Program-made: the position numbers and the translations under genes | From: an uncultured Methylophilaceae bacterium | Lineage (GTDB): Bacteria > Pseudomonadota > Gammaproteobacteria > Burkholderiales > Methylophilaceae | Assembly: GCA_913009235.1 (NCBI GenBank) | Contig: CAJVXS010000002.1 | Coordinates: 124,001-188,000, forward strand | Direction of reading: 5' to 3' | DNA length: 64,000 nt | The notes under the pieces: generated by a model | Database searches by the model: none | What the model was told of the DNA's origin: nothing | The model's input: the letters and a program-made list of their open reading frames with translations, nothing else | Shown here: positions 52,267 to 59,724 of the stretch, in pieces | Layout: the number at the start of each line of letters is the position of its first letter | How positions within the stretch are numbered: position 1 is the stretch's first letter

Positions 52267-53754
52267 TTACTGTTTTTTGCGACTTATCACAAAGGCAATT
52301 ACACTAAAACTGAAGGTGATAAATGGCCAATTGCCCCAGAGTACGTAAGGCGTAGTTCCTTCATAGCCTTGTGTAATCACGTTTAAGGTGGTTTTAGTGT
52401 CATGTGGAGCATGTGCCAGCACGTAGCCATGTTGGTCGATCAACGCAGTTGCGCCTGTATTAGTTGAGCGCAATACCATGCGACCAGTTTCTAGTGCACG
52501 TGCTTGTGAAAACTGCATGTGTTGATCGGCAGCGTAAGATTGACCATACCATGCGTCATTACTAATGTTTACTAATATCGTGGCTTCTGGCAGCTGTCGA
52601 ATAATCTCTTCACCAAAGACATCTTCATAGCAAATATTGACGGCGACTTTTTGATGATTGAGTAGCATGGGTTGTTGGTGTGTGCCGCCACGTGACAAGT
52701 CGCTAAGTGGGATATCCAACCAATCACGATAAACCCATCCAAGCATTTGTTTTAATGGGATGAATTCACCAAAAGGCACAAGATGGTTCTTGCTATAGGA
52801 CTGCGTTGGCGCTGTACCAAGGCTGAAGGCGCTATTAAAGTACTCCTGCGTGCCTCTATCGTAATCCACCATGCCAACAATGATGTTGCTATTGTTTTGT
52901 TTAGCATGTGTGCTCAGTGCATTGCGGGTGTTGGGGTCTAGCTGGGTCGCAATGACGGGTAATGCTGTTTCTGGCAATACGATTAAATCAGCCTGGCTGT
53001 TTTGTGTCATGGCAACATATTGCGCTATGGTGCTTTCTGTTGCATCAGGTGACCATTTGATATCTTGGCCAATATTGCCTTGAATAAGACTGGCGCTGAA
53101 TGGTTCGCCAACAGGAGATGACCATGGTACAATCTTTAAAATTCCGCCGACAGCAACAAGTAGTGTGATGGTAGTAATCACATTGCTGCGCCTGCTTAAA
53201 CCAACCACTTTATCTTTATTAGCAAGCCAAATGGCGATATAGGCTGCGATGGTGACGGTTATGATGGATACGCCGTAAACGCCAACGATAGGCATGTAGC
53301 CTGCTAATGGGCTATAGGGTGTTTGACTGTAGCCAATCGTTAGCCAAGGAAATCCTGTAAAGATCCAGCTACGAACCCAGTCGGATAAGCCCCACAACAC
53401 AGGCGTGCTAATGGTTAAGAATGTTAGTCTTTTGCTGAAATAACCAACTAAGGCGGGGAACAGCGCCATAAATGCACATAAGAAAAACGTACAAAAGCCA
53501 GCAAACCACCAAGGCATGCTGCCAAAATCGTGTAGGCTGATGTAGACCCAGGAAATCCCAATGCTATATAAGCCTAAGCCGAATTGAAAACCTAGTTTCA
53601 AACAAGCTTTTGCTGATGGTGCTTTCGCCCATAAGTAGATGATGCCTATGAGGGAGATAATGGTAGCTGGAAAAATGTAGAATGGTGCAAAGCCAAGCAC
53701 GGCAAACGCACCAAGTGAAAAAGCAATTAAAGGTTGGAAAAGTTTTTTAGGCAT
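52267..53754 (-). CDS. lnt: Apolipoprotein N-acyltransferase
   Basis: Adds the third acyl chain to outer-membrane lipoproteins. The 495-residue protein has about six N-terminal membrane segments (with WVYISLHDFGSMPW and FPWLTIGYSQ), then a periplasmic nitrilase-like domain. The catalytic triad is Glu in IVLPETALPV, a Lys in the following region (YSKNHLVPFGEFIPL) and Cys in VNICYEDVFGE. A last hydrophobic segment closes the protein. It starts the minus-strand run that continues into glyQ. Confidence 0.95.
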   Translation of the reverse strand: MPKKLFQPLIAFSLGAFAVLGFAPFYIFPATIISLIGIIYLWAKAPSAKACLKLGFQFGLGLYSIGISWVYISLHDFGSMPWWFAGFCTFFLCAFMALFPALVGYFSKRLTFLTISTPVLWGLSDWVRSWIFTGFPWLTIGYSQTPYSPLAGYMPIVGVYGVSIITVTIAAYIAIWLANKDKVVGLSRRSNVITTITLLVAVGGILKIVPWSSPVGEPFSASLIQGNIGQDIKWSPDATESTIAQYVAMTQNSQADLIVLPETALPVIATQLDPNTRNALSTHAKQNNSNIIVGMVDYDRGTQEYFNSAFSLGTAPTQSYSKNHLVPFGEFIPLKQMLGWVYRDWLDIPLSDLSRGGTHQQPMLLNHQKVAVNICYEDVFGEEIIRQLPEATILVNISNDAWYGQSYAADQHMQFSQARALETGRMVLRSTNTGATALIDQHGYVLAHAPHDTKTTLNVITQGYEGTTPYVLWGNWPFITFSFSVIAFVISRKKQ

Positions 53755-53887
53755 CGGTTGCTTTAGTTATAAGTTGTTGGAGCTTAGATTGAGCAGTATA
53801 AGTGAAAAGGAGTAAGTTAGAGTAGTTTAGATTAGGTGATATTAGAGAAGCATCATCCGCCCCAACTTAATTTTTTGCTTCAGCCTC

Positions 53888-54616
53888 TTAGCTTGAATAG
53901 CTTCCTAAAACGGCTTGTTGCTGCATTAAGTTCTGTAGCACGCCATACCCAAAGTCAATAATTGCTTGTGGCTCAGGATGTTGAATCTGCTCTGCAAGTT
54001 CGGTAAGCGCTTGTTTTCCAGTCATGCCCTCTTTAAGCATCTTTAATAGCACATAAGCCATCGGGTTTAATTCAATAAAGTTAACTTCAAACTCAGCATT
54101 TCTAAACACAAATAAATGTGTAGTTTTCTGTTGCTCAGGTCTGAATTGAGCAGAGATTTTCTGTACAGGGTAATCATATTGCAACAACATATGTGCAGGT
54201 GCTAAGACAGGCACTTCATTCAGCAAGTCAGTCTCTTTGCTTAATGTTGGCGTTTCAGTTGGCATTCCGCCAACGGCAAGTTCTACCCATTCATAGTGGG
54301 CGAGTTGTTTAATGTAATCTGAGGTTTCAGTATCAGCTTCTAAGAACGTAACGAGCTCTTTTGGAACCTCTCTAAAGATTGGTGAGCTGGCATGGTGGGT
54401 GGCGATGAAGCGCCTAATTATGGCATCCCAATAATTTGTGCCAACGGTTTCTTGGCATACGGGAAAGCATACGGAGGCAGCTTCAAATATATTGTTATAA
54501 ACGCCTTCTCGATAGACTGCCATACGCTCTTCATCGACATTGTTTGGCTTGGGGTTATTCTCTGGGTCGCGTATATGGGCGGTGAAAGCGTGTTGGTATT
54601 GTTGGAAATCTAACAT
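53888..54616 (-). CDS. DUF2063 partner protein of a bufferin/Hvf-type RiPP operon
   Basis: A 242-residue protein of the DUF2063 family, known as BufC/HvfC, which binds the precursor peptide and the DUF692 enzyme. The N-terminal domain has AFTAHIRDPENNPKP, RMAVYREGVYNNIFEA and SVCFPVCQETVG, then HHASSPIFREVPKELVTFL. The C-terminal domain (from about residue 145) has LLQYDYPVQKIS and a LNPMAYVLLKML segment. It lies 12 bp after the DUF692 gene and ends the operon. The family role is known from relatives; here it is inferred from context. Confidence 0.9.
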   Translation of the reverse strand: MLDFQQYQHAFTAHIRDPENNPKPNNVDEERMAVYREGVYNNIFEAASVCFPVCQETVGTNYWDAIIRRFIATHHASSPIFREVPKELVTFLEADTETSDYIKQLAHYEWVELAVGGMPTETPTLSKETDLLNEVPVLAPAHMLLQYDYPVQKISAQFRPEQQKTTHLFVFRNAEFEVNFIELNPMAYVLLKMLKEGMTGKQALTELAEQIQHPEPQAIIDFGYGVLQNLMQQQAVLGSYSS

Positions 54617-54628
54617 GGTGTTTTTAGA

Positions 54629-55528
54629 TTAAGCGGCCACAGAGTTGGTGCGCTGTTTAACATCAGCAGCACCCGCTTGTAGAGATGCGATTGTATCGAC
54701 TTCTTTCATTAGGATATCCAATGGTGGAATATTGATATCTCGTTCTAGTAGTGTGGGAAAGGCGCCGAACAAAGCATAGGCTTCTGCCAGCAATGACCAT
54801 ACCGGGTCGCTGACATCAGCGCCATGGGTATCGATTAGTAAATCAGACTTTTGTAGATAATGCCCAGCTACATGGCTGTAAACAATCCGTTCGACGGGTA
54901 CTCCTTTTAAAAATACACTGGCATCAAAGCCAAAGTTAACACTATTGACGTAGATGTTATTAATATCTAAATGTAACCAGCAATCAGCCTCGGCGAGTAT
55001 GGCGTTTAAAAACGTAAGCTCATCCATGGTGGCGATGGGAGGTTTTATGTAAAACGATGCATTTTCAACGGCGATACGTTGCCCTAAAATATCTTGTGTT
55101 TGTTTAATGCGGTCAGCGACGTAGTGTACGGCTTCTTCAGTAAACGGTATTGGCAGTAAGTCGTATAGATAGCCGGGTTTATTCTGATAGAAGTCGCTAC
55201 AGTAGCTTAGGTGCTCGGTATAGAGTGGTATTTTATTGACAGATAAAAATTGTTTTACCTGTTTCAAGAATTTAGTATTCAGTGGGTCTGGCCCGCCGAG
55301 TGATAAGCAGAGGCCGTGGCATGCAATTGGATAGCGCTCGACGAACCAAGCTAGCTGCTTAGCGTATTTTCCGCCCGCTCCTATCCAATTTTCTGGTGCG
55401 ATTTCAATAAAGTCAATATTGCTGATGAGATCATCAGGGGTCTTTTGTTGAAAATGGTGTTGAATTTGCGGAATCAGCTCTCGCTTCAATCCCAAACCAA
55501 CGCCATTAATATCAGTTAATCTTGACAC
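54629..55528 (-). CDS. DUF692 (MNIO) multinuclear non-haem iron oxidase, peptide-modifying
   Basis: A 299-residue TIM-barrel enzyme of the MbnB/BufB/HvfB family, which uses two or three iron ions to turn peptide Cys into heterocycles. Likely metal ligands are seen in CHGLCLSLGG, YTEHLSY, VENASFY, LHLDINNIYVNS, YSHVAGHY, DTHGADV and LLERDINIPP. The start is GTG at 55528 with no clear ribosome site, so translation may be weak or coupled. It follows the precursor gene by 34 bp and precedes DUF2063. Catalytic class is family knowledge; the product here is inferred. Confidence 0.92.
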   Translation of the reverse strand: MSRLTDINGVGLGLKRELIPQIQHHFQQKTPDDLISNIDFIEIAPENWIGAGGKYAKQLAWFVERYPIACHGLCLSLGGPDPLNTKFLKQVKQFLSVNKIPLYTEHLSYCSDFYQNKPGYLYDLLPIPFTEEAVHYVADRIKQTQDILGQRIAVENASFYIKPPIATMDELTFLNAILAEADCWLHLDINNIYVNSVNFGFDASVFLKGVPVERIVYSHVAGHYLQKSDLLIDTHGADVSDPVWSLLAEAYALFGAFPTLLERDINIPPLDILMKEVDTIASLQAGAADVKQRTNSVAA

Positions 55529-55562
55529 TATTTAATAATGCTAAGTGCTAAATAAACGTGGC

Positions 55563-55862
55563 TTATTTGCCACACTTTCCTTCACCGCATTTACCTTCGC
55601 CACATTTTCCATCTTCCATTTTTTTCTCTCCATCGCATTTTTCTTCACCGCATTTGCCATCCTTGGTTTTATCGGAACCACACTTACCTTCGCCACACTT
55701 TCCTTCACCGCCTTTTTTAGCGTGATTATCTGCAACTTGGTAGCCGCTAGAAAGTGTTTTAATTTCAAAAGGGTTGTCTGTTGCTGCAATAGCTGCGGTC
55801 CCCAGTGTTAATGCGAATGCGCCACCGACTGCTATGGCGATTGGCTTTTTAGACATGCTCAT
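55563..55862 (-). CDS. EGKCG-repeat precursor peptide (BufA/HvfA-type RiPP)
   Basis: A 99-residue Cys-rich precursor. Residues 1-27 are a Sec signal peptide (SKKPIAIAVGGAFAL, cleavage near AIAA). Residues 28-50 are a leader-like segment (NPFEIKTLSSGYQVAD) shared by this family. Residues 51-99 are low-complexity with seven Cys (56, 61, 71, 76, 87, 92, 97), four in EGKCG, two in DGKCG and one in EEKCD. In relatives such motifs become oxazolone/thioamide copper ligands. A good AAAGGA ribosome site precedes the ATG at 55862. It heads the three-gene operon; no DoxX gene accompanies it. Confidence 0.9.
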   Translation of the reverse strand: MSMSKKPIAIAVGGAFALTLGTAAIAATDNPFEIKTLSSGYQVADNHAKKGGEGKCGEGKCGSDKTKDGKCGEEKCDGEKKMEDGKCGEGKCGEGKCGK

Positions 55863-55912
55863 GATGATTTCCTTTTATGTAATGTAAATTGTTGTTACAA
55901 ATAAAATGCTAG

Positions 55913-56067
55913 TTACACTTCAGATTCTAATGATTTAGCGATACTTTTTTTGTTTTCAGTTGGCAATGTAATATTGTTATCGTCTTTAATCGCCTCAGCC
56001 CAATGGCCAGTATGGTCGAAGAATTCATCCAATCATACGCATGCTTTCTTGAATTGTCTTTTGTCAT
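55913..56067 (-). pseudogene. Small frameshifted gene coupled to the DUF1841 gene
   Basis: An ATG at 56067 overlaps the DUF1841 stop as ATGA, a usual coupling signal, and opens MTKDNSRKHAYDW. After that codon the original frame loses protein character. A shift by one base gives DEFFDHTGHWAEAIK, then DDNNITLPTENKK and the end SLESEV before TAA at 55913-55915. Together they would make a protein of about 50 residues. I infer a one-base deletion near 56027. No family is recognised; a sequencing error is possible. Confidence 0.5.
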
Positions 56068-56510
56068 TGCGTGCTTTTGCCAATCTTATTATGAAGTAAT
56101 TCTAGATAGTGAGCGCTATCCAGTCCAGTTTCATTCTGTTGTGCCAACCAAATGGTCTCTCCCAAGCAATCTAAGACATCATGCTGTGCAGAATGTTCCT
56201 CTTGATGTTTGGTTTTTAAAGTTTCATAAACAGCGGAGATGCCAATCGGCTGATTAATGCCAATTTGCTCTAAGATAGATAAGTGTAAGCTCATGTGCAA
56301 GAATGGATTGGTTTCACCTAATTCCGGGAAGTAAGCTTGCTGTTTATACTGTTCTGGCTTATCTAAGATAGCGTGATATTCGGGGTGAATTTGCATCACA
56401 CTAACCGCAATCTTTTCTAAATCCGTTAGCGGGTGTTGCTGCTTGAATTTAGCCCAGCTATTAAAAAAGAAGTTGCGCACTTCATCGCGTGATGGGTTGA
56501 ATAAACTCAT
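56064..56510 (-). CDS. DUF1841 family protein
   Basis: A 148-residue protein of the DUF1841 family, found mainly in beta- and gammaproteobacteria, with no known function. Family segments are FNPSRDEVRNFFFNSWAK, LTDLEKIAVSVMQIHPEYH and ETNPFLHMSLHLSILEQI, then AQHDVLDCLGETIWLAQ. It is largely helical and has no signal peptide or membrane segment. It lies about 100 bp after nth and upstream of the bufferin-type operon on the same strand. A small frameshifted frame overlaps its stop. Confidence 0.85.
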   Translation of the reverse strand: MSLFNPSRDEVRNFFFNSWAKFKQQHPLTDLEKIAVSVMQIHPEYHAILDKPEQYKQQAYFPELGETNPFLHMSLHLSILEQIGINQPIGISAVYETLKTKHQEEHSAQHDVLDCLGETIWLAQQNETGLDSAHYLELLHNKIGKSTQ

Positions 56511-56609
56511 GATTTTATATTGAATGGTTTAGTGTTGAATAATGAGAATTAAATGGATTCATATTGAATGTTGCGCTTTTGTCCATGGCTGCCTCAGTAG
56601 CAACACTAC

Positions 56610-57272
56610 TCATAGCTCGCCCGCCATCAGATGTGGTGAAGGAATTACTTTATCTTTGTATTCGCATAAGTCGACAATGCAACATTCACCACATTTTGGA
56701 TTGCGTGCTGTGCAAGTATAACGGCCATGCAAAATAAGTAAGTGATGGGCGTCCTGCATAAATTGTTTTGGGATGGTTTTTAAGTATTTCAGTTCCACGG
56801 CTAAGACATTCCTACCTGTTGCTAGTTTAGTCCGGTTGCCTAGTCTAAATAAATGGGTATCTACCGCAATCGTGGGTTGCCCAAAAGCAGTATTTAAAAT
56901 GACATTGGCTGTTTTTCGACCCACGCCCGGTAGTGCTTCTAAGGCTTCGCGTGTGTTCGGTACTTCGCTATTGTGTTGGGTAACAAGCATGTGGCAGGTA
57001 GCAATGATATTTTTAGCTTTCGCGTGATATAAGCCGATGGTTTTAATGTAACGTTCTAAGCCTTCAATGCCTAAATCATAAATATCCTGTGGCGTATTGG
57101 CGACAGCATAGAGTTTATTGGTCGCCATATTGACGCCTTTATCTGTAGCTTGTGCCGACAAAATGACGGCGATGAGCAGCTCAAATATTGAGGCATGCTC
57201 AAGTTCAGTTATTGGTTCTGGGATAGCCTTGCTTAAGCGTTCAAAAATTTGAAATCGTTTATCAGCGTTCAT
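56610..57272 (-). CDS. nth: Endonuclease III
   Basis: DNA glycosylase/AP lyase for oxidised pyrimidines. The 220-residue protein has the helix-hairpin-helix LEALPGVGRKTANVILN with the catalytic Lys in GVGRKTAN and the catalytic Asp in AVDTHLFRLGNR. The [4Fe-4S] cluster loop is CTARNPKCGECCIVDLC. It follows rnfE by 44 bp; rnf/rsx genes followed by nth is also the E. coli arrangement. Confidence 0.96.
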   Translation of the reverse strand: MNADKRFQIFERLSKAIPEPITELEHASIFELLIAVILSAQATDKGVNMATNKLYAVANTPQDIYDLGIEGLERYIKTIGLYHAKAKNIIATCHMLVTQHNSEVPNTREALEALPGVGRKTANVILNTAFGQPTIAVDTHLFRLGNRTKLATGRNVLAVELKYLKTIPKQFMQDAHHLLILHGRYTCTARNPKCGECCIVDLCEYKDKVIPSPHLMAGEL

Positions 57273-57316
57273 TGCTATAAGCCGTTAATTTTAAAGAGCC
57301 ATCAATTAAGACCAGA

Positions 57317-58018
57317 TTAATACGCTGGCTTGAGTGGTTCGCTTAGTTCTGATTCTGGTCCAGGGGTTATTGTTGGTTTTTTATTGGTTTTGTACTGTTC
57401 GGCCCAATTATGCGCGGCAATTAAAAAGGCTAAGCCAAGAAATGCGCCAGGTGGTAAAGCGGCGAGTAGAAAGCCTTGGTAATCAGGGATGACGGTTAAC
57501 ACTACATGCTTAAAGTTTTCCCCTAAGGCTAAATCCAAACCTGAGAATAAGGTGCCCTTGCCTAATACTTCACGCATCCCACCCAGTAACGCTAATACGA
57601 TGGTGAGGCCAATGCCCATGATAAACCCATCCCAAATAGCATGCGCTGGCGGGTTCTTTGCTGCAAAGGCATCGACTCTACCTAATACAATGCAGTTGAC
57701 CACAATCAACGGAATGAAAATTCCAAGCACTTTATGCAGCGGTAATGCATACGCATGAATCAGCAAATCAATCACAGTCACCAAAGCAGCAATCACTAAG
57801 ATAAATACAGGCAGGCGAATTTCATTCGGTATAAATTTACGTACTGGCGAAACAGCGCCACTTGAAGCAGCCATTACGACAGCAGTTGCTAAGCCTAAGC
57901 TGACACCGTTGACTACAGTGGTCGTTACTGCCAGCGTTGGGCACAAGCCAAGTAATTGCACCACGCCTGGGTTTTGTTTCCATATGCCATTTTCAGTAAT
58001 GTCTTTAAATTGACTCAT
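57317..58018 (-). CDS. rnfE: Rnf/Rsx electron transport complex subunit E
   Basis: Integral membrane subunit of the Rnf complex, which moves electrons between ferredoxin and NADH with ion pumping, or keeps SoxR reduced as Rsx. The 233-residue protein has six membrane segments with NPGVVQLLGLCPTLAVTT and VVNCIVLGRVDAFAAKNP. GGMREVLGKGTLF is also seen. I used the ATG at 58018 and not an upstream TTG. It overlaps rnfG by 14 bp and is last of the six rnf genes. Confidence 0.94.
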   Translation of the reverse strand: MSQFKDITENGIWKQNPGVVQLLGLCPTLAVTTTVVNGVSLGLATAVVMAASSGAVSPVRKFIPNEIRLPVFILVIAALVTVIDLLIHAYALPLHKVLGIFIPLIVVNCIVLGRVDAFAAKNPPAHAIWDGFIMGIGLTIVLALLGGMREVLGKGTLFSGLDLALGENFKHVVLTVIPDYQGFLLAALPPGAFLGLAFLIAAHNWAEQYKTNKKPTITPGPESELSEPLKPAY

Positions 58019-58703
58019 TTTTACCAACCTTGTTTGCTTTCTTATCTTCTTTAACTACGTCTTTTATGATTTCTTTTGCAGTTTCTTTTAATAAGACTGT
58101 TTTGTTCTCTTTAAAATATTGTAACGCTTTATTCACTGCTTTAATCACTACTCGTGGTGTAATGGTCGCACCAGCCATGTAATCAAAAGTGCCACCATCC
58201 TTAGTGACTGTCCAATTAGAACTGTTAGTCTTTATGAGCGATTCTTGATCAAATAGTTTAATCCATTGTGATTTAGCAATGTCGATATAGTCACCTAGTC
58301 CAGGAGTTTCTGTATGTTGGATCACGCGCACTCCTGAAATAACTCCGTTATAATCAATCGCAACCAGTAGCTTAATATCACCACTATAGCCATCATGGGC
58401 GACGGCTTCTAAAATTACTGCTACTGGTTTGTCGTTCATGCGTGCAATGTTGGCTGTGGTTGGCTTTTTATTACCTAATAAAGCACTGGGTAGAATATCA
58501 ATCGTATCGTTTAATACGGCATTATCATAGCGGTCGTGTGGAATGACCTGCTGAAATAAAGCAATGCGTGCAGCAGCTTCACTTTCGGCAATTGGCGTTT
58601 TTGTTACTTGGTATACGACCGTCATTAATAAGGTGAACGTGAATGCAAACGCGACCAAAGTAATAGCAGTTTTGATGGTGTGTTTGAAAATGGTTTCTGG
58701 CAT
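58005..58703 (-). CDS. rnfG: Rnf/Rsx electron transport complex subunit G
   Basis: Membrane-anchored flavoprotein subunit of the Rnf complex. The protein has one N-terminal membrane segment, then a periplasmic FMN-binding domain with HTETPGLGDYIDIAKSQW and the covalent FMN attachment site MAGATITPRVV, where the flavin is bound to the second Thr region of the S/A-G-A-T motif. The ATG at 58703 lies just past the rnfD stop; an ATG at 58715 adding four residues is also possible. The Lys/Glu-rich C-terminal tail is unusually long. Confidence 0.92.
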   Translation of the reverse strand: MPETIFKHTIKTAITLVAFAFTFTLLMTVVYQVTKTPIAESEAAARIALFQQVIPHDRYDNAVLNDTIDILPSALLGNKKPTTANIARMNDKPVAVILEAVAHDGYSGDIKLLVAIDYNGVISGVRVIQHTETPGLGDYIDIAKSQWIKLFDQESLIKTNSSNWTVTKDGGTFDYMAGATITPRVVIKAVNKALQYFKENKTVLLKETAKEIIKDVVKEDKKANKVGKNESI

Positions 58704-58704
58704 C

Positions 58705-59724
58705 TTATTTCTCATGTCCAAACACGCGTGGTTGCGTATACATGTCAATCAACGGCACGCAAATGTTCATAAAGATAACGGCAAAAGCGACGCCATCAGG
58801 GTAGCCGCCGTACACACGAATCAAATAAGTAATAATGCCAGCGCCAGCCGCAAAATAGAGTTTGCCTTTGAGTGTGGTTGGGCCGCTAATCGGGTCAGTC
58901 AGAATAAAGAATGCCGCAAGCATGCTGGCACCACTAAGTAAATGAAAACCTGGGTTAGCAAACTGTAATGGATCAATCAGCCAGAAAATGCCAGCCATCG
59001 CTGCAATCGAACCTAAAAAAGCGGCTGGTAAATGCAAAGTGATAATACGTTGCTGCCATAAAAATAGACCACCCGCTAAATAGGCTAATGCAATAGCCTC
59101 GCTTCCTTTTCCACCTAATACACCAAAAATTGGCGCAGCTTGAATCGCATCCATACTCTGGTTTAATTTGAGCTGCGTTTTTAGGTAATCTAATGGCGTA
59201 GCTGATGTTACTGCATCCATGCTGATACTAGCAGGCAATGCATGATTGAAAATATAGTTGAACTGGTCCATGAAGCTGAGCTTGGTTTCTGCAAAGCTCA
59301 ACGCTGCTGGCCATTTCGTCATGATGACTGGAAATGAAATCAATAAGACGGCATAGCCAATCATCGCAGGGTTGAATGGATTGTAACCAAGCCCTCCGTA
59401 TAATTGTTTAGCAATGATGATGGCAAATGCGACACCAACCACCACCAACCACCAAGGTGCGAGTGGTGGGATTGCTAATGCTAATAACCATGCCGTAATC
59501 ACCGCGCTGTAATCAGATAAGAAAGGCTGCACTGGGCGTTTACGTAGCTTCAACACCAGCGCTTCTGTGGTTAGGGCTGTGATTGTTGCTAATGCCAGTG
59601 TAATTAAAATGCCACCACCATATAACCATGCATAGACAATAATGCCAGGTAGTAATGCCAATAGCACTTTAAACATAATGCTGCTGACGGTTGGTGCATT
59701 CGTAATGTAAGGTGAGCGGTTCAA
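58705..59724 (-). CDS. rnfD: Rnf/Rsx electron transport complex subunit D
   Basis: Integral membrane subunit of the Rnf complex with a covalently bound FMN. The 339 residues begin NRSPYITNAPTVSSIM, the family start, and include about nine membrane segments. GGLGYNPFNPAMIGYAVLL and the FMN attachment motif DAVTSATPLDYLK are visible, and FILTDPISGPTTLKGKL lies near the end. The start is TTG at 59724 with an AGAG site; the next ATG would remove the conserved N-terminus. It lies between rnfC and rnfG. Confidence 0.93.
   Translation of the reverse strand: MNRSPYITNAPTVSSIMFKVLLALLPGIIVYAWLYGGGILITLALATITALTTEALVLKLRKRPVQPFLSDYSAVITAWLLALAIPPLAPWWLVVVGVAFAIIIAKQLYGGLGYNPFNPAMIGYAVLLISFPVIMTKWPAALSFAETKLSFMDQFNYIFNHALPASISMDAVTSATPLDYLKTQLKLNQSMDAIQAAPIFGVLGGKGSEAIALAYLAGGLFLWQQRIITLHLPAAFLGSIAAMAGIFWLIDPLQFANPGFHLLSGASMLAAFFILTDPISGPTTLKGKLYFAAGAGIITYLIRVYGGYPDGVAFAVIFMNICVPLIDMYTQPRVFGHEK

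Follow-up and report, generated by a model that had tools for sequence, protein, structure and literature searches.

What does a three-gene locus built around a DUF692-type enzyme make in an uncultured Methylophilaceae bacterium, and under what control? The locus lies within a 64,000-nucleotide stretch of this organism's genome (assembly GCA_913009235.1, contig CAJVXS010000002.1, positions 124,001 to 188,000), hereafter the window, and a sequence-only reading had described it as a bufferin/Hvf-type operon for a secreted, ribosomally synthesized and post-translationally modified peptide (RiPP). We regard it as probable that these genes, hvfABC, serve to make a copper-binding RiPP of the captophorin (EGKCG) kind that acts in the periplasm. 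The regulatory pair that probably served as the switch of the operon has been deleted, and residue 265 of the modifying enzyme may help to shape the flanks of the modified cysteines. The class is known; new in this instance are the altered specificity residue, a Cys-Asp site in the precursor and the deleted switch.

The open reading frames (ORFs) of the three minus-strand genes stand where they were first placed (Table 1), in the order precursor, multinuclear non-heme iron-dependent oxidative enzyme (MNIO), DUF2063 partner, with gaps of 34 bp between hvfA and hvfB (55529-55562) and 12 bp between hvfB and hvfC (54617-54628), and family models bear out the proposed gene content. HvfB matched PF05114 at 324.6 bits (cut-off 25) and the NCBIfam HvfB model PRK05409.1 at 387.8 bits (cut-off 360), which makes it an MNIO of the HvfB family, and its GTG start agrees with the N-termini of relatives in the alignment. 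The adjoining gene encodes the PME1/DUF2063 partner, with matches to DUF2063 (85.6 bits, cut-off 27.2), NGO1945_C (88.7 bits, cut-off 27) and the NCBIfam HvfC model NF050145 (251.7 bits, cut-off 142). The claim of a secreted, Cys-rich precursor also held: the N-terminus, judged by eye on the sequence without a predictor, resembles a Sec-type signal peptide followed by an NPF segment, and seven cysteines (residues 56, 61, 71, 76, 87, 92, and 97) lie in four EGKCG, two DGKCG, and one EEKCD motif. The precursor domain KCGExKCG_twice (NF050137) was matched at 49.2 bits (cut-off 19.5), and a signal peptide with repeated EGKCG-like motifs, encoded upstream of an MNIO gene, is the combination by which the class is recognized.

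Judged on sequence, the operon belongs to the EGKCG/Hvf class, whose products oxazolin, fontiphorin, and gonophorin are called captophorins. It shares the joint precursor, MNIO, and PME1 genes with fonABC (Fontimonas thermophila), hvfABC (H. influenzae), and ngoABC (N. gonorrhoeae), and the signal peptide, E/DGKCG repeats, catalytic Asp, and putative iron ligands with their captophorin systems, from which it differs in its one EEKCD motif. Two further differences weigh against the captophorin reading: the HvfA equivalog model NF050188 gave 48.6 bits against a cut-off of 95, so that the precursor is a member of the class and not an HvfA equivalog, and the operon is flanked by lnt and DUF1841 with no DoxX gene adjoining (fon also lacks one). 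Of the earlier label, the Hvf half therefore stands and the strict bufferin half does not, because no DUF2282 match was obtained and HvfB reached 254.9 bits against the BufB cut-off of 310; the MNIO plus DUF2063 logic and copper chelation are what the bufferins Buf1 (DUF2282) and Buf2 have in common with it. Nor is the catalytic Asp followed by a second Asp, as it is in the Cys-Lys (BufB2) group. A methanobactin assignment was likewise rejected (MbnB model TIGR04159, 37.4 bits against a cut-off of 325): MbnABC shares the MNIO fold (7DZ9 and 7TCR are among the Foldseek matches), whereas its partner and precursor differ and the class chemistry here is 5-thiooxazole, not oxazolone/thioamide.

Enzyme comparisons drew on a first set that joined the best 80 of 409 candidate loci with loci from genomes of the family, giving 110 HvfB-type sequences, of which 102 were left after an identity filter over the C-terminal 200 residues; because only the best 80 of 409 were kept, this set leans to close relatives. 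Twelve residues that we take as the putative iron sites and the catalytic Asp (H71, H106, E155, N156, D188, N190, H219, H223, D233, H235, E262, and D264) were invariant in 102/102 aligned MNIO sequences. Residues were equated with FonB D249 and with HvfB N175, D242, and H244 by motif position and an alignment to 3BWW, without the HvfB or FonB sequence. The nearest solved structures by sequence were 3BWW for HvfB and 3DEE for HvfC. HvfB was modelled with AlphaFold2 from a 23-sequence alignment (mean predicted local distance difference test score, pLDDT, 85.4; segments 110-114 and 117-124 below 50), and in Foldseek the model came closest to 3BWW (39% identity) and to entries of TglH and MbnB. 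Structure prediction, which had been proposed as a check on the iron ligands, thus supports the MNIO fold, while the ligand roles come from papers and the alignment and not from a metal-bound model. The enzyme departs from the FonB-type Lys-Cys MNIO signature of Arg15, Arg16, and Phe250 in having Lys15, Arg16, and Ile265; Lys15 occurs in every row of the 102-sequence alignment that has neither Phe nor Asp at position 265 (the Methylophilaceae-type rows).

The chemistry of characterized relatives suggests what the window peptide would become. Fontiphorin, oxazolin, and gonophorin carry 5-thiooxazoles that absorb near 305 nm, fontiphorin loses 4 H per repeat, and copper binding was shown for fontiphorin and gonophorin, the products of the class generally binding copper (PMC13097082); HvfB uses a mixed-valent diiron cofactor and requires its partner protein (PMC13419390). 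By analogy, HvfC, as a partner with a RiPP recognition element, would present the precursor to HvfB, a mixed-valent diiron MNIO that would turn Lys-Cys units into 5-thiooxazoles in the cytoplasm, with a predicted loss of about 4 Da per Cys. The modified peptide would then be exported by Sec and bind Cu(I) in the periplasm, where it would buffer or detoxify copper during envelope stress. Conserved class features together with this chemistry make a Sec-exported, thiooxazole-bearing, Cu(I)-binding peptide the most likely product, and the copper role raised in the earlier reading is likely by the same analogy to class members (PMC13097082). The suggestion that the product might be new fares less evenly: since the chemistry of the class is already solved (PMC13097082), an EGKCG product as such is not new, and the novelty that remains is a lineage variant with Ile265 and a Cys-Asp site.

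Ile265 is the residue after the catalytic Asp and corresponds to FonB Phe250, which lies beside catalytic Asp249 and in a model faces both neighbours of the modified Cys, the preceding Lys and the following Gly; a logo made from 100 Lys-Cys enzymes shows Phe as conserved at this position, and F250D alters tolerance (PMC13097082). We compared this residue with the precursor motifs of 93 of the 102 first-set loci (L003, L010, L025, L028-L030, L128, L141, and L149 were not read); precursors had been read for 90 loci and then for 93, and the rank and tree tests below draw on the 90. Gly followed the Cys at 194/209 positions in the 26 loci with Phe, 96/99 in the 17 with Ser, and 10/10 in the two with Val, as against 36/101 with Asn (18 loci), 34/94 with Thr (16), 20/41 with Ile (7), 16/43 with Leu (6), and 2/8 with Met (1). 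The non-Gly residues of the Asn, Thr, Ile, and Leu loci were mostly Ser. Outside the counts, L003 (Phe) has Gly after 5/5 core Cys and L010 (Leu) has Ala, Gly, Gly, and Gly. In the genus mates L017, L020, L021, L022, and L024, position 265 is always Ser and each Cys that could be read is followed by Gly; a contig end truncates the precursor in L020 and in L024.

Loci are called Methylophilaceae-type here when, among the best 80 candidates, their HvfB was at least 67% identical to that of the window (L080-L131, L135, L142); the records of several give no family name. In 65 Methylophilaceae-type loci, column 265 ranked first of 203 alignment columns both for Gly following the Cys (adjusted R2 0.65, next column 0.41) and for Lys preceding it (0.58, next 0.31), and it came first for Gly in 90/100 random halves. 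On the 90-locus tree, mostly Methylophilaceae, the residue changed its letter at least 19 times. A second set was assembled outside the family from 109 loci, of which 29 came directly from the search and 80 were hand-picked among the matches listed, mostly one per family and above the model cut-off; 67 were usable by the motif rule, and 42 were dropped where the precursor was missing, misread, or motif-less. The dropped loci include five without Phe, namely L233 (Leu; Gly and Ala after Cys) and L240, L269, L270, and L272 (Gly and Ser), and the Phe locus L253 (Gly and Ala); one serine in the row of L190 stems from the signal peptide, and L205 apparently overlaps with L139 of the first set, a Phe locus. 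Gly followed 422/431 Cys in the 59 Phe loci of the second set and 38/48 in the eight non-Phe loci. Any non-Gly residue after Cys was found at 5/8 non-Phe and 6/59 Phe loci (Fisher p 0.002), and a residue beyond Gly or Ala at 3/8 and 3/59 (p 0.02). In L268 (Asn), one of these non-Phe loci, the Cys are followed by Asp, Asp, Ala, Ala, and Ala, which gives KCD motifs like that of the window. The pattern of column 265 thus recurs, in weaker form, in other families.

Several results weigh against a role of this residue. The covariation depends largely on Ser versus Asn/Thr/Ile/Leu loci, and without the Ser loci column 265 drops to rank 14 of 198. Supported phylogenetically independent pairs numbered four, random pairings giving 2.6 in the expected direction, 0.0 in the opposite one, and 1.4 equal (median p 0.25) in a test that grouped Ser and Val with Phe after the residue table had been seen. 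The loci of the Fisher tests are not fully independent, and the second set contains counter-examples: each counted Cys is followed by Gly in L257 and L271 (Asn) and in L267 (Ala), and L261 has Phe and mostly Ala. The few, non-significant pairs and the fall in rank would fit a link between residue 265 and the flanks by shared ancestry alone. Every column shares one tree, however, yet 265 leads for both flanks and, for Gly, in most random halves; modelling and mutants of FonB single out the same residue (PMC13097082), and the second set trends the same way. We judge ancestry alone rather unlikely and lean towards the view that residue 265 of HvfB has a part in deciding what may stand beside the modified Cys, the covariation being what was observed and the cause what we infer from it.

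What this means for the single window Cys without a Gly after it, that of EEKCD, is more tentative. FonB left substrates with a charged residue after Cys unprocessed (PMC13097082), so the EEKCD site may simply stay unmodified. Ile265 may permit the site, and its modification seems to us possible at somewhat less than even chances. Similarly conjectural is the wider picture in which position 265 is a natural specificity switch turned many times, the Asn, Thr, Ile, and Leu enzymes would give thiooxazoles flanked by Ser, His, Ala, Asn, or Asp in place of Lys/Gly, and the Ser-to-Ile change of the window with its Cys-Asp site coincides with the loss of the regulatory switch. If true, captophorins whose thiooxazoles lack Lys/Gly flanks would form a product family of their own, with another chemistry at the metal site. 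Of what this locus offers, we rate the covariation across the lineage as the best lead. The rules that choose the modified Cys are only partly known, and one column that predicts both flanks in natural sequences offers a direct and inexpensive test of an enzyme-substrate code. More than 24,000 MNIO-PME1 loci have been counted (PMC13097082), and a column already mutated in FonB offers a route to product prediction from sequence.

The second lineage feature lies upstream. In the family the usual gene order is DUF1841, an extracytoplasmic function (ECF) sigma factor (about 190 aa), a zinc anti-sigma factor (about 83 aa), hvfA, hvfB, hvfC, and in L032, the nearest relative, sigma passes TIGR02943 (206.1 bits, cut-off 162.2) and anti-sigma passes NF052368 (66.6 bits, cut-off 50). 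At 81 loci we scanned up to 2600 bases upstream with a sigma profile (11 sequences) and an anti-sigma profile (10 sequences); part of these sequences come from genomes that are also among the named loci. Fifty-two Methylophilaceae-type loci, the window included and L080, L090, and L102 set aside, offered 1500 or more upstream bases. Among these 52, sigma was a single intact frame in 45, was broken or shortened in five (L084, L100, L110, L119, L121), and gave no match in L127 and the window; anti-sigma was a single frame in 48, the exceptions being L100, L110, L127, and the window. Weak matches to both regulators came from four of the remaining 26 loci, most of which are gammaproteobacterial and some of which have short upstream sequence. 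The pair normally precedes the operon in relatives and probably controls it.

In the window, where a Neisseria-type hvf operon would have an intact sigma/anti-sigma pair, a 155-base remnant (56067-55913) is left, made of three blastn pieces joined at two microhomology junctions. Two pieces matched L032 at E 1e-46 and 1e-14, and the middle piece matched L031 at 1e-8 and L032 at 0.001; relative to L032, about 244 and 421 bases are absent. Adjoining pieces share 8-9 bases, the pattern that deletion between short repeats would leave, and the pair was destroyed by at least two deletions. An assembly artefact would be conceivable in a partial genome (3 contigs, 48% complete), but the flanks are intact on both sides, two separate junctions would be needed, the spacer from the remnant to hvfA is 86% identical to that of L032 with one 2-base gap, and the same gene is damaged or lost in G004 and at six named loci, so that we hold an artefact to be highly improbable. 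The damage in G004 (L160) is a frame-shift in the sigma gene before hvfA, and that at L121 is a single stop that could be a sequencing error.

Table 1. Coordinates of the operon, of the specificity and Cys-Asp sites, and of the upstream remnant within the window.
Feature	Position	Strand	Remarks
hvfA-like precursor	55563..55862	-	99 aa; ORF list; NF050137 above cut-off, NF050188 below
hvfB-like MNIO (DUF692/PF05114)	54629..55528	-	299 aa, GTG start; putative iron ligands and catalytic Asp264 kept
hvfC-like partner (DUF2063 + NGO1945_C)	53888..54616	-	242 aa; family-model matches
Codon of HvfB Ile265 (= FonB Phe250, residue after catalytic Asp)	54734..54736	-	alignment
Cys76-Asp77 of precursor (EEKCD)	55632..55637	-	single Cys without Gly after it
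First codons of ECF sigma gene, remnant	56023..56067	-	ATG overlaps DUF1841 stop (ATGA)
ECF sigma middle, remnant (EFFDHTGHWAEAIKD)	55982..56031	-	overlaps first piece by 9 bases
Zinc anti-sigma 3' end with stop, remnant	55913..55990	-	overlaps middle piece by 8-9 bases
DUF1841 gene	56064..56510	-	intact; conserved upstream neighbour marking the locus

With the pair gone, stress control of the window operon has probably been lost. One point stands against this: with the genome 48% complete, a second sigma copy may exist elsewhere. When the three contigs were searched with the L032 sigma, nothing matched beyond the middle remnant and a single distant sigma factor, of a kind also present in the five other genomes of the genus. 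If true, loss of the dedicated switch would mean that the window peptide is made outside a stress response, and repeated loss of the pair with the operon kept asks whether such products serve stress or act as housekeeping copper buffers. The sequence-only reading had missed the decayed pair, Ile265, and the Cys-Asp motif, which are the informative parts of this locus.

The pair has known counterparts and is therefore not new as a regulator. Neisseria sigmaE and its zinc anti-sigma are encoded in one autoregulated operon (PMC2893595), the gonococcal NGO1945 neighbours include an MNIO, a periplasmic protein, DoxX, and the sigma factor (PMC2954202), and in H. influenzae the homologous cluster is induced after hypochlorous acid (HOCl) treatment by RpoE2, which a 67-aa anti-sigma holds in check (PMC7907618). 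The Neisseria sigmaE operon (NMB2140-2145) and H. influenzae RpoE2/HrsE thus share with the Methylophilaceae pair an ECF sigma, a small zinc anti-sigma, and the same kind of operon, and Cys4, His30, Cys34, and Cys37 of the L032 anti-sigma (positions counted by hand) are as in MseR. The Methylophilaceae pair is found upstream of hvfA, and in both the window and L032 the sigma gene begins within the stop of DUF1841, the ATG overlapping it; the H. influenzae pair lies elsewhere, beside msrAB. This place before hvfA and the repeated decay are what the present analysis adds. PMC12452194 mentions sigma factors and NrsF for Buf1 clusters, its main text containing neither zf-HC2 nor Methylo-, and neither lineage feature appeared in the titles and abstract openings that we found, in a search with most subscription journals outside its coverage. 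A copper-chelating RiPP is also described from Microbulbifer (PMC12538549).

These counterparts bear on what the peptide is for. Induction of the homologous cluster by HOCl through RpoE2 (PMC7907618), and the control of MsrAB by Neisseria sigmaE (PMC2893595), would fit a product that serves another stress or metal, such as zinc, gold, hypochlorite, or thiol stress, and not copper. Fontiphorin and gonophorin bind copper, as the class generally does (PMC13097082), and copper and HOCl-type triggers are not mutually exclusive; we consider a product unrelated to copper unlikely and retain the copper-binding RiPP as the preferred reading.

Despite the lost switch, hvfABC is intact and still constrained in the window. 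A close HvfB is present in 6/6 genomes of the genus (83-87% identity in the five others) and HvfB scores above cut-off in 25/37 genomes of the family, which makes the operon more than a chance arrangement. Among the best 80 of 409 candidate loci, the closest relatives of the window HvfB were L080, L081, and L082 (84, 85, and 83% identity; two assemblies labelled Methylophilaceae and one Betaproteobacteria). Against L032 the ratio of nonsynonymous to synonymous substitution rates (dN/dS) was 0.24 for hvfA, 0.07 for hvfB, and 0.15 for hvfC. Amino-acid changes on the window branch and its sister numbered 17 and 19 in hvfB and 13 and 15 in hvfC, and neither these counts nor dN/dS gave a sign of relaxed selection in hvfB or hvfC after regulator loss; for hvfA the counts, 11 and 8, lean the other way. 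A full-length HvfC frame was found at 8/8 loci checked, six with a damaged or missing sigma plus L080 and L081.

Could the operon nonetheless be in early decay, with sigma lost, transcription gone, and hvfABC intact only through recency? Its regulators are reduced to a remnant, hvfA has the highest dN/dS of six genes compared with L032 (the others 0.03-0.15), and sigma decays beside hvfABC in other lineages too. Yet the presence of two deletions means that the loss, once under way, took more than one event, none of the three frames is interrupted, the window branch changes no more than its sister in hvfB or hvfC, and L127, without either regulator within 2600 bases upstream, has hvfA, hvfB, and hvfC, and we think decay quite unlikely compared with a functional copper-binding RiPP operon that has outlived its switch. 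As a separate observation, L084, L100, L110, L119, L121, and L127 all retain the three genes despite a damaged or missing sigma.

Sigma-70 promoter-like sites in 53700-56700 numbered eight against 7.1 expected in shuffles, which is no evidence for such a promoter before hvfA, and no CGTC box of the Neisseria sigmaE type was seen by eye in the 150 bases before hvfA in the window, L081, or L082. A GAATC-N16-18-CGTAT-like element, absent in the window, occurred in 13/53 upstream stretches under a loose pattern (0.5 expected) and in 5/53 under a strict one, near the end of the anti-sigma gene in L083, L086, L092, L094, L108, and others; it is a candidate ECF promoter and, the pattern having been drawn after looking, a lead only.

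Some further observations concern precursors and neighbouring genes. L145, L233, and L253 have another type of precursor upstream of hvfB, with repeats such as CGNICGG or CGTFCGG in place of EGKCG, and these may form a separate substrate class. At L167, L175, L238, L248, L250, L251, and L254, EGKCG motifs and EF-hand-like segments (by eye) occur within one precursor, a combination already described in PMC12452194. A weak DoxX match lies far from the operon in the same genome (G000:C3:87160-87408, L163; 27.9 bits, cut-off 23.6). The upstream gene set at 56064-59724, DUF1841 included, recurs across many genomes of the family, and the genes beside DUF1841 are presumably an endonuclease III-like gene and Rnf-like electron-transport genes.

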